Source: Nanobdellati archaeon
Lineage (GTDB): Archaea > B1Sed10-29 > JAGVWA01
Assembly (NCBI GenBank): GCA_018304505.1
Contig: JAGVWA010000017.1
Location: forward strand, 1-8,492
DNA: 8,492 bases
Direction of reading: 5' to 3'
In this document: piece after piece, positions 3,301-8,492 of the stretch
Layout: every line of letters begins with the position of its first letter
Numbering within the stretch: position 1 is the stretch's first letter
The notes under the pieces: generated by a model
What the model saw: only the letters and a program-made list of their open reading frames with translations
Told to the model about the DNA's origin: nothing
The model's database searches: none
Position numbers and translations under genes: made by a program

Positions 3301-3744
3301 CGGCTGTCGAGCCTAAAGGCGGCAATCACGAAGATGGACTTTTCAAGCTTCGACAACTTTGCCAAAAAGACAGACGCGCAGAAGGCGCGCGTCATTAAAG
3401 AGGAATTCTCAGACATGCTCAATTACCTCGAGCTGAGGATCGCCTCGATACAGGGCCAGGCGCGTTCAGAAATGATCAAGGCCAAGCAGAGGTTCGACGA
3501 AATCAAGGCCAGCAACGGGCTTGAATTATTGGGCAATGCCAAGGAGTACTTCGACACAGGATACTTCTACAGGGCCATGGACGCTGCGAGGCAAATCGGC
3601 AGTGGTACAGGCAATGAAAGCCAGAACCCGATAAAGCCTGAGTATGTCCTGCCGGTGCTGGGCCTCGTAGGGGCTGGTGTTTACGCAATGAAGAAACCCA
3701 AGGAAAAGCCGCGCAAGCAATTCAAGATGCTGAGTGACGATTAG
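391..3744 (+). CDS. Large membrane-anchored, helical-stalk surface protein
   Basis: The product is 1117 residues and I do not recognise a named family. Residues 1-33 form a short basic start followed by a hydrophobic run (a signal peptide or N-terminal membrane segment). Residues 34-570 are charged, Ala/Glu/Lys-rich and mostly helical, probably coiled coil or helical bundle. Residues about 575-735 look like beta-sandwich. Residues about 738-806 (DRIDVSIGVTNLGE, then ELPAGAEV, then an LAPAETVSI closing strand) resemble a DUF11/CARDB-like Ig fold. A second helical part follows, with four cysteines at 904, 909, 916 and 922. Residues 1084-1100 form a weak membrane segment followed by a Lys/Arg-rich tail (residues 1101-1112), which suggests an outside-facing protein with a cytoplasmic C-terminus. 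About ten N-x-S/T sequons (for example N56, N179, N228, N714, N828, N878) fit glycosylation. The ATG start is supported by the TATA spacing and the signal peptide. The last codons and the TAG are the first unit of a tandem repeat. A structural, adhesive or cell-envelope role is an inference. Confidence 0.85.
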   Translation: MRKGVIPLPLLIFSAPLILAALYGALDFVAAQQIFDQVNQLRTPVEIQHALSLLPNGTYKPHLESAWVNAKQAKDFAVKMQEKTRDFYFSMVFEQTIKGWLFDLGLQTNASGNYKSAKNSFFKAQTEAAIAFNELLVQLEGRRIELDEMGADNSRYSGLANVKYKEAEDFLNQANEYYNVTNTMTGVRCSQVDLLTCLIATRKNQKTIEHSITIFNTIAAPDKSLYLNMTKLLVELEQGKQQMQDKYSTLRSLAQAKQKSAESIIETLENEDIKLVTENVINVIPAKATHVVLQKTGSPDTMHKRLKSDIRDAEITAEEIEIQRKLKRDDYLFNAITSAKPLYENSLITEQLAKTLESDLEAHEKDMQDYIDGLMRSMDVNNPFHIEARELLEKAIDQDKVGRKLVLQAQAAKKFTMPKDEVILAKINDETSDEIQWLIRIIGHWGIYIKDLQDRLRNALTEKNESTKNDIIGDIIDDAMFRALPLIRELDEMEARSADLIGFAELVKENPELSQYIDPEMLDELKRDFDLASGMKFPEDYERMKEIYDKIISKLEPIAEEISSSILTKSTRAFADIGIVECNEQVNTKLRFHITNPTRIKLINAKIEVDTKGLVERTSNGFDNIVFSIPEIAPLSIIEKELDAVFTAARCTTTERATVSATPSKVVWEEQVQLEWLVKPVAVIVKNDVLDLIYSKPYGSLVGGKILLLNPGENITLRYAQKSNVDVQRRVSIKKKPNFQDRIDVSIGVTNLGEKLSNFELTEELPAGAEVIEYSMQPQVTITGLQFTLPSLAPAETVSITYAYLVNNTAGFVESKKGEIGSLVGLINMTNENFSQTPLFRQYEQLINLADEEFLESLPEVRAGLEQQYEFTLTSQRNSTGLPRLDFDKAPQNAEVKNRLERICQYSSCVEVKNACQEKDTCPELETAEESVLAEFQEFDTSALERKLDEFEKAFDGDAEMTNSVTEAKTRLSSLKAAITKMDFSSFDNFAKKTDAQKARVIKEEFSDMLNYLELRIASIQGQARSEMIKAKQRFDEIKASNGLELLGNAKEYFDTGYFYRAMDAARQIGSGTGNESQNPIKPEYVLPVLGLVGAGVYAMKKPKEKPRKQFKMLSDD

Positions 3745-3855
3745 GCACTCAACTGGATGTTGAGCGACGATTAGGCACTCAATAGAATGTTGAGTGGCAA
3801 TTAGGCACTCAACAGGATGTTGAGTGACGATTAGGCACTCAACAGAATGTTGAGC
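3727..3855 (+). repeat. Tandem 30-bp repeat array overlapping the stop codon
   Basis: Four full units start at 3727, 3757, 3787 and 3817, and a 9-base partial unit starts at 3847. Units differ from the fourth by only 2-3 bases. Each unit reads ATG-Leu-Ser-x-x-TAG-Ala-Leu-Asn-x, so the first copy is the true C-terminus (MLSDD-stop) of the surface protein and the others repeat it in frame. Each unit carries the arms GTTGAGTG and CACTCAAC. Arms pair within a unit across a 9-nt loop (best at 3789-3813 and 3819-3843). They also pair between units across a 3-nt loop, with a perfect 9-bp stem at 3806-3826 and good ones at 3776-3796 and 3836-3854. There are no spacers, so this is not CRISPR. It probably forms a structured 3' UTR; possible roles are transcript stabilisation, termination or protein binding. 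Confidence 0.9.
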
Positions 3856-3872
3856 TATCACAAATAGAACTG

Positions 3873-3900
3873 TTTATATATCGTAATAACATAATATATA
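3873..3900 (+). promoter_or_regulatory. TATA promoter region of the toxin-antitoxin operon
   Basis: A strong TATA-like box TTTATATA lies at 3873-3880, and a second AT-rich box AATATATA at 3893-3900. From the first box, the expected start of transcription about 26 bp downstream falls near 3902-3904, just before the GTG start at 3913. The two boxes form an imperfect mirror of TATATA stretches about 14 bp apart. The AbrB-type antitoxin might bind here for autoregulation, as is usual for such operons, but no clear operator palindrome is visible. Confidence 0.5.
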
Positions 3901-3903
3901 CAT

Positions 3904-3907
3904 GGTG
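3904..3907 (+). promoter_or_regulatory. GGTG ribosome binding site for the toxin GTG start
   Basis: GGTG matches the core of the archaeal Shine-Dalgarno sequence (GGTGA type) and is 5 nt from the GTG at 3913. This favours that codon over the ATG at 3902, which is out of frame and hits a stop after 14 codons. The frame of the toxin is closed by TAA at 3892-3894, so the start cannot lie far upstream. Confidence 0.4.
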
Positions 3908-3912
3908 TTCGG

Positions 3913-4188
3913 GTGGAGGATCTTTCAAAGCAGGGGGTTGTGTTGAGTAGGCATGCCTTAAAGGAAGCGCTTGAAGATATAATTAGCATGAGGGAGCTTG
4001 AGTCAAATCTTGACAATGCGTTGGTAATGGATTCAGGCTTGGGGAAAGAAAAAGCAGTATGCAAGATAAAAGACCGCTATGTAACGGCGATATTTGTCAG
4101 GTTCAGAAATGGGATCAAGATAATAACTTGTTGGGGCAGTTCATTGTGGGAAACGCAGGCATACGAAAATGCACTGAAGAAAATGTGA
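3913..4188 (+). CDS. DUF4258-like putative toxin of a type II toxin-antitoxin pair
   Basis: The product is 91 residues. The layout is LSRHAL (residues 11-16) at the start of a charged helix (14-34), then strands AVCKIKDRYVTAIFVRF (48-64) and IKIITCWGSS (68-77), then a short C-terminal helix. An early Arg-His-Ala motif, a beta-sheet core and a closing 'iiT.w' strand are what I know of DUF4258, a RelE/MqsR-related fold commonly paired with YgiT-type zinc-finger antitoxins. The next gene encodes exactly such a partner, starting 5 bp after this stop. If active it would be an mRNA-cleaving ribonuclease in the cytoplasm; His14 and Arg13 are candidate functional residues by analogy only. The start is GTG with a GGTG site upstream. 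The toxin-first order is common for MqsR/YgiT-type systems. In lines I counted by hand the GC was about 42-43%, lower than parts of the flanking surface genes, which fits a mobile cassette but is not proof. Confidence 0.7.
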   Translation: MEDLSKQGVVLSRHALKEALEDIISMRELESNLDNALVMDSGLGKEKAVCKIKDRYVTAIFVRFRNGIKIITCWGSSLWETQAYENALKKM

Positions 4189-4193
4189 TGTAA

Positions 4194-4526
4194 ATGAAAT
4201 GTGTTTGCGGAAACACCATGAAAAAGATCAAGACGGAACTTGATTTATATGATGGCACAGTCATAGTAAAAGACATCGATGCTTATTACTGTATAAATTG
4301 CAAAGAGGAAGTTTTCACGTCTGTGCAAGGCGAAATTGTGCAAAAAAAGCTAGGCCAAGTTGTACCGGTAGAGGCGTTCAAACTTCGTAAAAAGCTAATA
4401 AAAGTTGGCAATAGCCTCGCCATGCCGATTTCAAAGGAAGTTGCTGAGTTCATGCAGCTCCACAAGGGCCAGGAGGCAGAACTCATGGTCAAAAGCAGGC
4501 ACAGGCTAATTCTAAATGTGGCATGA
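4194..4526 (+). CDS. Antitoxin: YgiT-type zinc finger fused to AbrB/MazE-type domain
   Basis: The product is 110 residues with two domains. Residues 1-41 are a YgiT-type zinc ribbon: cysteines C3 and C5 in the first knuckle (KCVCG) and C33-x-x-C36 (YYCINCKEE) in the second, separated by strands. Residues about 62-110 are an AbrB/SpoVT/MazE swapped-hairpin DNA-binding domain, shown by IKVGNSLAMPISKEV (69-83) followed by LHKGQEAEL (89-97). In MqsA-like antitoxins the zinc domain binds the toxin and a C-terminal domain, usually a helix-turn-helix, binds the promoter. Here the AbrB-type domain appears to take the DNA-binding job, so autoregulation is expected. The oddity is the first cysteine pair, which has CxC spacing rather than the usual CxxC. 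The ATG is 5 bp after the toxin stop, and GTGATG at 4185-4190 can serve as a ribosome binding site overlapping that stop, so translation is probably coupled. Confidence 0.8.
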   Translation: MKCVCGNTMKKIKTELDLYDGTVIVKDIDAYYCINCKEEVFTSVQGEIVQKKLGQVVPVEAFKLRKKLIKVGNSLAMPISKEVAEFMQLHKGQEAELMVKSRHRLILNVA

Positions 4527-4528
4527 CC

Positions 4529-4563
4529 GCAGTTAACTGCAGCCCTGCTCATAACGCTTTTTT
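4529..4563 (+). terminator. Possible terminator of the toxin-antitoxin operon (palindrome plus T6)
   Basis: A perfect 12-bp palindrome GCAGTTAACTGC (4529-4540) starts 3 bp after the antitoxin stop. A run of six T (4558-4563) follows 17 bp later. Archaeal termination mainly uses T-runs, so the T6 may stop the plus-strand transcript. It lies within the last codons (Lys-Lys region) of the converging minus-strand gene, so the two transcripts would overlap slightly. The hairpin itself is short and weak, and the T-run may exist simply because it encodes lysines on the other strand. Confidence 0.3.
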
Positions 4564-7500
4564 CATTCTCTGTTCAACATCGGCTTGCGTCAATGATCTG
4601 TTAAACCACGCGACCTCGTCAAACGTTCCGGCCGCAAGTTCATTATTTTGACTATCCAAATTTATCTTCCCGAGTTTCCAGAATGGATCTCCAATCGTAT
4701 CGAGTTCGCCAGCGTAGGTTTTGCTGATAATGTTTGTCCCATTTAGGAAGACATTCGCCTGACCGTTGCCCCACGTGAATGCGATGTGGTGCCATGAATC
4801 ATTACTCAAAGGGTGCGTAGCATCGCTGGTAAAGTAATTATGGCTATTCACGGTGTTGAAAACGTCTAACTGTATTTTCCCATTAGCCTCGATACGTAAG
4901 TATGGTCTCCCGTCGTTTCTACTGACGAGGTAATATGGCGTGTTGGTTGGCAAGTTATTTTTTGGCTTGAACCAGAACATGAACGTGCCGTTCTTTGTGA
5001 TTGTTGTCGGCAATGAAGCCCACTGATTTTCCCCATTTAGGCTTATGCCATAGCCGATTTTTCCCGGCGCGTATTCCGGGCTGCCAGTGTATGTTGATTG
5101 GTTGTTGTTTGCACTGTCATCGTTTCTATTTCCGTTGAAGTGCCACAGTCCCTGGAGACCCGGTTCAAGACCGAGTTCCTTGCTGGTGGCACTTGGCGGG
5201 GTGCACGAGCTTGCTGTGAACGAGTATCCCGTATGGTCGGTAAACGTTACAGGAACATTAGTTATGCTTATTTCCGGTGATGCAGCTGCCCGTATCATAG
5301 TGAGGTTTGATTGGTTTGTGCCGGTGTTTTCAGCGACCTCAGTAACGTTATATTGCTGTGCAGCTTGAGGGCCAATTTGTGCTGCTAGGTTTTGGTTTAG
5401 CCGTGAAGCCACTTCAAGGTTCATCAGCGTGTTTTGAGTCTGCAACCGTATTGTGTATGGGTCACTATGGGTACACTGGAGCACACTCAAGCCAAAGGTT
5501 TTTTCGCTGAGGCTGCTCGGGTATGCTGGCAAGTAGACGTTGAGCAGAGGCACTAGCTGTGATTGACGTTCAGCATCTCCAAGTCCACCAGAAGAGTTTA
5601 GTGTGAAATTGCTTAGCACGAGTATGTTTTTTCCAGACCTCCATAGGCTTTGATACACCCAAGCATCGTTGATTTTCTGGTTGTAGAACCTGATTTTCGC
5701 AGTGCCTGCGATGAGCCTGTCTGTGAGAACATGGTAGTCCTTGTCCCGCTCGTCAAAGGCCTGCATTGCAAGTTGTTCTGTGAAGTATTCTGAAATGTTT
5801 ACCATCAGCAGTTGTGGCGTAGCTGTGTGATTGTAGATGAGCCCAGCAGCAAGTTTTACATCTTGTGGTGTGGGCTGTTTCAATGATGAGATTAGTACTG
5901 CCCCAGCAACGTTTCTTGAAAGTGCTGGAGGCGTTTGATATCTCAGCAGCCTTGCTCTGCCGTTCGTGCCTCGGTCAATTGCCCAGCCGTTGTTTGAGTC
6001 GATCATGTCGATGTCAGTGATTGTAGTGTTGCCGATAGTGAAATACAACTTGGTCTTTGATAAGTCATCTAGCGTTGTGCTGTTGGCATCAAATGGCATG
6101 TACTGCGGCGTCGACTGATTAGTTTCAGTTGGGCTTATTAGCGATTGAGATGATGCGCTGATGGGCATGCTGTCCGCGCCCATAGTGAATTTCCCCGCAA
6201 TCCACCCGTTCAGCGGGTTTAGGAAATCCATTCCGCCCGGGTTTGTGACGTTGTGCGTTCTGAATGTCCATGACTTGGCGTTGTCGTAGCTCACGCCGAT
6301 TTCAGTGTCAGTTAGGGCGTAGATGACGCTGCTCACTTTCCCACTGAGAATCTGTGGCACGAACGTGTTTTGCGCGACCGTGAATCCTGATTCGACAGGC
6401 ATGTAGTCAATCTTTTTTATGTTTTGTATGGTTTGGTTTATCTCCTTCAATACCCACGAGTTGTTTTCGGACTTCATGTGTATAACGCCAAGGGCGCCAG
6501 CAATCCACGCCTCTCTCTCAGCGACTGCGTCAACTGAATTCCAATCTGCGGACAAGATGATCGAGATTTGCCGAGGCACAGCATTCCACGTTGAGCCGCC
6601 GTTGCTTGTGTGGAATATCCTGTCTTGGTTTGCAGCGATCCACGTCTCATTGGCAGAGTAAACGTCGATGTCGTTCAGCTGAATCTGGGATATGTCAAGC
6701 ACGCCGTCTGCACCTTGGACATTGGTTTGCGGCTGCCATGCTTTCCCGCCGTTGCTGGTTTTGTATATCCTGTTGTTCTGCGTTATCATCCATCCATTAT
6801 TCGCGTCTGCAAAGGCGATGTCAATTGGCACTGTGTCGGGTAGCTCTGATTCCTTGGTAAATGTATTGCCGCTATTGATGGTTTTTATGAACACCATTTT
6901 GTTTTCATAAGTGCCCGCGATGAAACCGATAGCGTTGTTGATGAAGTCCATCTTCAGCGGCGTGATGTTTATGCCAACGTGGGCGAAGCTGACTTGCTCA
7001 ACCCATGACTTAATGCCATCTGAGTTGATCGTGTATTCGCGTCCAGTAGTCTTTTCATTTGAGTCGGTCAATGTTAGTTGCGCCGGGGCAATTACCTTTC
7101 CAATGTCGCTCGGGTACAATGCAAGGTAGGTGGTCGTGATGTTCCTCACCAGCGTGGCGTTTTCTCCTTTTACTTGGAGAATGTGGATTCCGCTGGGCCA
7201 TACTTCTTCTTGCACGTCCCGAATGAAGTCGGAGCCGGGGTCTGGGTAGGTGGTTATGTTGTGCGAGCCAACAGCGACAGTTTGAGCCCCCGATGCCGAT
7301 TTTTGCGTGCGTCTCATCGCGCTTTCCAGCGTTCCGAGCTGCGAGTCGAGGTAACCCTGGGAATACTTGTAGAAGTAGAGGGTGTATTTTTCGTTCTGCG
7401 TCGATGTGTATTCAACAGTGGCCGTGAGTGTGAGTTCTGGCTCAGCTGTAAATTCAGTACCATTCGCGACTTCTTCGTATTTCGTTAGCCTGAAGCCACT

Positions 7501-8492
7501 GATGTTTTCTTTGATTGCGAAGTTGCGCACTGCACCAGGGGCGGTAACATTGGTTGTGACATTTCTCGGCGCGGTTACGTTCGTTGGCTTTGGGCACGCA
7601 GCGAGGCTCGCGGCCTTTGTTCCATCAAGGCACGTTATTTGTGTTATCTGTTCCTGCTCTTTTGCCGTTGGCACAAGCTCGCCCTGGCAGTACGTCGAAT
7701 TTCTAGCTAGCTGGAACACGTTTCGCGATGTGATGCTCGGCATTACGTCAAGCGGTATTTCACATGACATTGTCTTGCTTACCTGCGCCAGGTCCTTGAT
7801 GTTGTTTACCTGGATGAGCTGCACCGTGACGCCGCAGTTAGTGCTAATTTTCCCAGTTACGGTGTGCTTGTACACCCCGGGAAGCAGCACGTTCGAAGTC
7901 AATGGCAGGTTTGCAGTTACAAGTTCGCAGTTCTTGGCCTTGCTGGTGAAGCAGTTCTCGTCAGTGCGGCAGTTGAATGTCGAGCTTTCGATGTCCTTCT
8001 TGGCTGCGAATTGTGACGCGTTTGTCGCAGTCACGGCGAAGTAGCTGAAGCCTGGAGTTACAGAGCTGAATGTTATTGTGCGTGTGGTTTCCTCTGCCTG
8101 CTCTGTCGGCAACTCAACCCAAGTCAGGTTTTCCTCATCGTATCGATAGAGCCTGACGGTTTTAGGATCATGTTTGTTGTCGTCCAGCCATGATTTTTCA
8201 ACGATGAAGTAGATTTGTGTTTCCTCAACATCCTCTGCGTCTAGGTCGTTGCCTTGCAATTGGAACAGCAGCCATGTGTTTGTCTTGCCAGCTGCCGATT
8301 TTATTGATCTTGGAAGGGCATCCAGTTTTGTAACTTCAAGTTGGGCAGTGTCGAGAGTTCCGCGTTGCGACGCCGTGACGAGAATTCGGTCTATGAAGAG
8401 GGATTGGGAATTTTCCAGAAGCGCGTCGAAGGTCTTAGATGGACCTAGTTCGCCGATGCTGAGGGTTTCAAATGTCACCTCTTCAATTATTG
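4549..8492 (-). CDS. Giant surface protein: PGF-pre-PGF, Asp-box propeller, LamG (5' end outside window)
   Basis: The frame runs open to the window edge. A GTG at 8478 gives 1309 residues (numbering used here), but the codons upstream (IIEEV) continue the same domain and no signal peptide is present, so the true start lies outside. Residues 1-151 match the PGF-pre-PGF domain of archaeal surface proteins (SWLDD, VRLYRYDEENLTWVEL, TPGFSYFAVTA). Residues about 165-300 hold eight cysteines (170, 176, 184, 215, 239, 264, 283, 295), then a Thr/Pro linker with repeated NVT sequons. Residues about 505-850 are a Ycf48/BNR-like beta-propeller, with Asp-box motifs at 533-540, 574-581 (TSNGGKAW), 624-631 (TSNGGSTW) and 730-737 and GW/TW strands before them. 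Residues 850-1090 are unrecognised. Residues about 1104-1305 are a LamG/concanavalin-A-like domain (GLWHFNG, WHHIAFTW, DEVAWFNRSL). There is no C-terminal anchor or PGF-CTERM signal. A secreted or wall-associated glycan-binding or adhesion role is inferred. Confidence 0.88.
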   Translation of the reverse strand, partial: IIEEVTFETLSIGELGPSKTFDALLENSQSLFIDRILVTASQRGTLDTAQLEVTKLDALPRSIKSAAGKTNTWLLFQLQGNDLDAEDVEETQIYFIVEKSWLDDNKHDPKTVRLYRYDEENLTWVELPTEQAEETTRTITFSSVTPGFSYFAVTATNASQFAAKKDIESSTFNCRTDENCFTSKAKNCELVTANLPLTSNVLLPGVYKHTVTGKISTNCGVTVQLIQVNNIKDLAQVSKTMSCEIPLDVMPSITSRNVFQLARNSTYCQGELVPTAKEQEQITQITCLDGTKAASLAACPKPTNVTAPRNVTTNVTAPGAVRNFAIKENISGFRLTKYEEVANGTEFTAEPELTLTATVEYTSTQNEKYTLYFYKYSQGYLDSQLGTLESAMRRTQKSASGAQTVAVGSHNITTYPDPGSDFIRDVQEEVWPSGIHILQVKGENATLVRNITTTYLALYPSDIGKVIAPAQLTLTDSNEKTTGREYTINSDGIKSWVEQVSFAHVGINITPLKMDFINNAIGFIAGTYENKMVFIKTINSGNTFTKESELPDTVPIDIAFADANNGWMITQNNRIYKTSNGGKAWQPQTNVQGADGVLDISQIQLNDIDVYSANETWIAANQDRIFHTSNGGSTWNAVPRQISIILSADWNSVDAVAEREAWIAGALGVIHMKSENNSWVLKEINQTIQNIKKIDYMPVESGFTVAQNTFVPQILSGKVSSVIYALTDTEIGVSYDNAKSWTFRTHNVTNPGGMDFLNPLNGWIAGKFTMGADSMPISASSQSLISPTETNQSTPQYMPFDANSTTLDDLSKTKLYFTIGNTTITDIDMIDSNNGWAIDRGTNGRARLLRYQTPPALSRNVAGAVLISSLKQPTPQDVKLAAGLIYNHTATPQLLMVNISEYFTEQLAMQAFDERDKDYHVLTDRLIAGTAKIRFYNQKINDAWVYQSLWRSGKNILVLSNFTLNSSGGLGDAERQSQLVPLLNVYLPAYPSSLSEKTFGLSVLQCTHSDPYTIRLQTQNTLMNLEVASRLNQNLAAQIGPQAAQQYNVTEVAENTGTNQSNLTMIRAAASPEISITNVPVTFTDHTGYSFTASSCTPPSATSKELGLEPGLQGLWHFNGNRNDDSANNNQSTYTGSPEYAPGKIGYGISLNGENQWASLPTTITKNGTFMFWFKPKNNLPTNTPYYLVSRNDGRPYLRIEANGKIQLDVFNTVNSHNYFTSDATHPLSNDSWHHIAFTWGNGQANVFLNGTNIISKTYAGELDTIGDPFWKLGKINLDSQNNELAAGTFDEVAWFNRSLTQADVEQRMKKAL

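Follow-up and report, generated by a model that had tools for sequence, protein, structure and literature searches.

What is a row of short inverted repeats doing at the point where the gene for a predicted surface protein ends and a toxin-antitoxin-like pair is about to begin? The locus lies in a window of 8492 bp (the whole stretch of DNA analysed), which is contig C6 of a 917-kb, 21-contig draft genome that is 93% complete and archaeal by its SSU rRNA match (1135 bits). The original prediction regarded the repeats as an array of 30-bp units with two competing hairpin registers in a 3' UTR that could act as a stability element, a protein-binding array or a terminator. Our analysis points instead to a locus-specific minisatellite that is likely to have formed by tandem duplication of the gene end.

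The array and its units

TRF places a 30-bp tandem array at 3726-3854 (period 30, 4.3 copies, score 202), and a repeat search returned the same register; the array predicted at 3727-3855 is therefore real, and its existence is well above chance. Its score is the highest among the noncoding and gene-edge arrays in the sampled part of the genome. The units match at 86% according to TRF and differ from one another by 7-17%.

Arms capable of pairing had been predicted in every unit. Such arms do exist, but the perfect pair GTTGAGTG/CACTCAAC is confined to units 3 and 4; the variant GCTGAGTG occurs in unit 1, GTTGAGCG and CACTCAAT occur in unit 2, and partial unit 5 possesses the 5' arm only. The unit is palindromic beyond chance, a 9-bp stem being reached in none of 300 shuffles. 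An ORF on the minus strand that crosses the array (3526-3861) was dismissed, since it merely reflects the absence of stops from the 30-bp unit in that frame.

Features of the window around the array
Feature	Position	Strand	Remarks
ORF, 1117 aa	391-3744	+	Predicted surface protein (one DUF11 domain); unit 1 holds its final five codons and stop
Unit 1	3727-3756	+	ATGCTGAGTGACGATTAGGCACTCAACTGG; codes MLSDD-stop; arm pair broken at 3730/3752
Unit 2	3757-3786	+	MLSDD-stop, in frame with unit 1; C at 3765 disrupts one pair, T at 3783 still forms a wobble
Unit 3	3787-3816	+	MLSGN-stop; perfect 9-bp arms
Unit 4	3817-3846	+	MLSDD-stop; perfect 9-bp arms
Partial unit 5	3847-3855	+	ATGTTGAGC; 3' flanking partial repeat
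TATA-like element	3871-3880	+	Upstream of the toxin-antitoxin pair
Candidate toxin gene, 91 aa	3913-4188	+	First gene of the pair; no Pfam or NCBIfam match
Antitoxin-like gene, 110 aa	4194-4526	+	N-terminal weak YgiT/MqsA-type zinc-finger and C-terminal "putative addiction module antidote" matches

The gene end inside the array

The array does not begin behind the gene but within it. Positions 3727-3744 read ATG CTG AGT GAC GAT TAG, that is, M-L-S-D-D-stop, and belong to unit 1; the label of a 3' UTR is thus incomplete. Since 30 bp correspond to ten codons, every later full unit has a tail of the same kind followed by an in-frame TAG, the series continuing as MLSDD*, MLSGN* and MLSDD* and ending in a diverged MLSYHK* at partial unit 5. 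The full units therefore repeat a five-residue tail with its stop codon, which identifies the array as a tandem-duplicated, hairpin-containing gene end rather than an independent 3' UTR element. A reading of the five in-frame TAG codons as pyrrolysine was rejected: no pyrrolysyl-tRNA synthetase (PylS) scores above the cut-off in the genome, and the sole match below it is of a kind also given by E. coli and other controls.

A homologue of the surface protein in genome G002 shares 21% identity across residues 23-1113 and stops at the equivalent place (...KKPRKKPRKPITMKLKRGS compared with ...KKPKEKPRKQFKMLSDD in the 1117-aa protein), so that the stop in unit 1 lies at about the ancestral place, with the extra units beyond it. 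No repeat was found 3' of the stop of this homologue, nor was an array found around a weaker one in G003, and searches of genome_contigs and viral_contigs returned no closer homologue. Homologous loci lacking the array, which the original prediction had named as one part of what would refute it, thus exist, although the homologues concerned are distant (21-54% identity).

Predicted folding and the fate of the pairs

The predicted RNA fold of 3727-3855 has an energy of −50.8 kcal/mol, against −29.1 ± 3.6 kcal/mol in shuffles (z = −6.1), a difference that is expected of a tandem array whose unit contains a hairpin. The perfect 9-bp hairpin with a 3-nt loop at 3806-3826 is present as described, and alternative pairings are real; the picture of two competing registers, however, does not hold, because the predicted ensemble contains many. 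For the array alone it is dominated by the intra-unit stem of unit 3 (P = 0.94) together with long-range stems joining units 2 and 4, 4 and 2, and 5 and 1, stems between adjacent units being minor, and when flanking sequence is included the predicted pairing pattern shifts again. At the level of units the predicted energies are alike, from −5.4 to −12.1 kcal/mol within units and from −7.0 to −11.5 kcal/mol between them. Alternative registers are in fact automatic in such an arrangement, since tandem arms A and A' yield A...A' within units and A'...A between them.

Whether pairing has been preserved can be judged from three arm substitutions. The C-to-T change at 3783 in unit 2 leaves a G-U wobble pair, as had been noted, whereas C at 3730 in unit 1 and C at 3765 in unit 2 break theirs. 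By chance, half of all transitions in the arms would keep the pair. The substitution rate is 3/64 in the arms and 5/56 elsewhere (Fisher P = 0.47, a weak test with four units only). With two of the three arm substitutions breaking pairs, no selection on pairing is visible.

One locus, many unrelated arrays

The unit is specific to this locus. No further copy occurs in its own genome, and it is absent from the 393 other genomes searched, apart from one match with three mismatches (G094) that is at chance level. Exact scans of genome_contigs and viral_contigs (85k-genome and viral collections) did not recover it either, nor did the plasmids and phages searched. Rfam offers no matching family, in agreement with the earlier remark that no named family with this repeat was known.

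Arrays as such, by contrast, are common in this genome. In the 535 kb (58%) sampled with TRF at a score of at least 60 there are 49 of them, or 9.2 per 100 kb, against densities of 1.2, 5.1 and 4.5 per 100 kb in sampled stretches from three relatives; none appeared when the first 295 kb were shuffled. Roughly half (24 of the 49) are noncoding or lie at gene edges. The units of these 24 are unrelated to one another, and seven of the arrays contain the stop codon of a gene. Nearly the same architecture is seen in L037:13720-13776 (G000:C5), where 22-bp units carry the gene end GTCEE-stop or a variant of it; its last unit has TAA in place of TGA. Significantly palindromic units were detected in four of the 24, where about one would be expected (p ≤ 0.04 for each in shuffling tests), namely the array under study, L033:17108, L034:9717 and L042:1223. 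The second of the latter three (L034:9717-9796, G000:C2) is intergenic and consists of 3.2 copies of a 25-bp unit, 100% identical and hairpin-forming (TATCTG-CTTA-CAGATA); it is probably very recent. The third (L042:1223-1302, G000:C11) is a 31-bp array upstream of a minus-strand gene, its unit forming a hairpin with 11-bp arms (AGGTTAAGTAA...TTACTTAACCT).

Two general features that might have characterized the class were discarded. A preference for co-directional spacers, apparent in 16 of 17 arrays of a first sample, was not replicated in an independent second one (2 of 7), and overlapping stop-start motifs (ATGA/GTGA) are not enriched in the units, with 29 observed and 28.3 in shuffles.

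Alternative roles for the array

Could the hairpins serve as a 3' structural element that shields the surface-protein mRNA from 3' exonucleases or pauses the polymerase before the toxin-antitoxin promoter? The strength of the predicted fold is in keeping with such a role, as is the position of the array, directly after the stop codon and ahead of the TATA-like element, and there are precedents: in a Haloferax reporter, 59% of transcripts were terminated by a hairpin (PMC7237163), and the sequence 3' of archaeal stop codons is enriched in inverted repeats, if less strongly than in bacteria (PMC13155455). However, aCPSF1 binds U4 tracts, on which efficient archaeal termination with this factor depends (PMC8716108), and every T run in 3701-4250 is shorter than four. 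With no U-tract following the array, a standard archaeal terminator appears unlikely. The substitutions, moreover, do not follow a pairing-preserving pattern, the homologues of both the surface protein and the toxin-antitoxin pair, distant as they are, do without an array, and a ribosome terminating at the stop codon enclosed by the first hairpin would be expected to melt it. We therefore regard a dedicated structural element as unlikely: its registers follow from geometry, its pairing is not visibly kept, homologous loci lack it and the U-tract is missing. It is less probable still that the array works as a 3' element depending on copy number, its successive stop-bearing hairpins adjusting the stability of the mRNA or the extent of read-through into the toxin-antitoxin pair, with duplication of gene ends as a recurrent route to such elements in this lineage.

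The downstream pair directs attention to another function, that of an operator array whose palindromes, spaced about three helical turns apart, would be bound by the antitoxin with its zinc finger and AbrB-like end. It is common for antitoxins to bind palindromes close to the promoter from which they are expressed; here the TATA-like element follows the end of the array by about 16 bp, and a further copy of TGTTGAGT is found at 3941-3948, early in the first gene of the pair. (There it is complementary to the 3' arms of the array, probably by chance.) The antitoxin-like gene itself matches TIGR02609 (1.9e-7) and TIGR03831 (9e-4), both below their cut-offs; the pair at 3913-4526 has a relative at G000:C5:17208-17522 and others in several distant archaea. 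However, the closest homologous pair, in L017 (antitoxin 54% identical), shares the gene order and is likewise preceded by a comparable TATA-like element, but has neither array nor related palindrome. Of the 11 homologous loci examined, L017 among them, not one has a GTTGAG/CTCAAC palindrome upstream. The operator role is thus not supported and, with unit 1 being coding sequence of the neighbouring gene, we hold it to be rather improbable. A mobile or dispersed repeat family of the REP/BIME, MIRU or integron attC type would also place a hairpin-forming unit next to a gene end, and the arms fit GTTRRRY/RYYYAAC, the consensus of the attC R box. Yet the repeat occupies one locus in the genome and has no match in Rfam, and the integron integrase profile TIGR02249 has no match at E = 0.001 in a genome that is 93% complete; the attC reading of the arms was rejected. 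A mobile origin is hence largely refuted and in our estimate highly improbable.

The window also holds two further genes. On the minus strand, 4549-8490 encode a 1313-aa protein with an open 5' end, a PGF-pre-PGF match, a YCF48-like (BNR-type) repeat and a C-terminal Laminin_G_3 domain, and this gene is convergent with the toxin-antitoxin pair; positions 1-291, at the contig edge, hold the 3' fragment of a protein that matches the SocA/Panacea antitoxin domain below threshold.

A probable minisatellite made from a gene end

A minisatellite derived from the gene end offers, in our judgment, the likely explanation of the locus. The final 30 bp, comprising the last five codons of the surface-protein gene, its stop and the hairpin sequence, would have been duplicated head to tail, through slippage during replication or through unequal recombination, until four full units and one partial unit were in place; the units have since drifted apart. 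Because each ten-codon unit supplies an in-frame tail and a stop, the protein would hardly change when units are added or lost, and the array would be tolerated. Self-complementarity of the unit probably aided slippage through hairpins formed in single-stranded DNA. Two observations weigh against the minisatellite: the palindrome goes beyond chance, which a neutral origin does not require, and the arms of units 3 and 4 are perfect despite the divergence between units. A passive effect of the array on the 3' end of the mRNA is possible; any such effect would be a by-product, and we infer that the array lacks a dedicated function.

If this account is right, an array of hairpins with many registers can arise passively when tandem duplication affects a gene end that contains an inverted repeat. 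The analysis also singles out a small archaeal genome in which locus-specific minisatellites at gene ends are unusually common. Such arrays are possible strain-typing loci, and they provide a test case for tandem repeats that start at stop codons.

Comparison with known systems

Compared with the anatomy of attC sites, the unit is too short and is devoid of L boxes. Bacterial VNTR/MIRU loci consist of short tandem units between co-directional genes and can overlap a stop codon, as this array does. MIRUs, however, represent one sequence dispersed across many loci, whereas the present unit is found at one. With head-to-tail units of at least 10 bp at a single locus, the array has the layout of a VNTR-like prokaryotic tandem repeat. 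Elements of the REP/BIME type are similar in that they are 20-40 bp long, form hairpins 3' of genes and enter larger folds with their neighbours, but they are high-copy, bacterial and mostly tagged by GTAG or CGTC, those with GTAG being tied to RAYT transposases (PMC3733652); the single-locus array does not share their many dispersed copies. The tandem repeats of Borgs, extrachromosomal elements of Methanoperedens, may start in the end of an ORF and be flanked by a partial repeat (PMC9879509, Fig. 4B legend), and both traits recur here, although the host is the genome of a small archaeon and not a Borg. Perfect, recent units and a high A content (48%) mark the Borg repeats (PMC9879509), in contrast to the diverged units of the array and its A content of 30% (27% in the genome sample). 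Without being classed as a Borg repeat, the array works like one.
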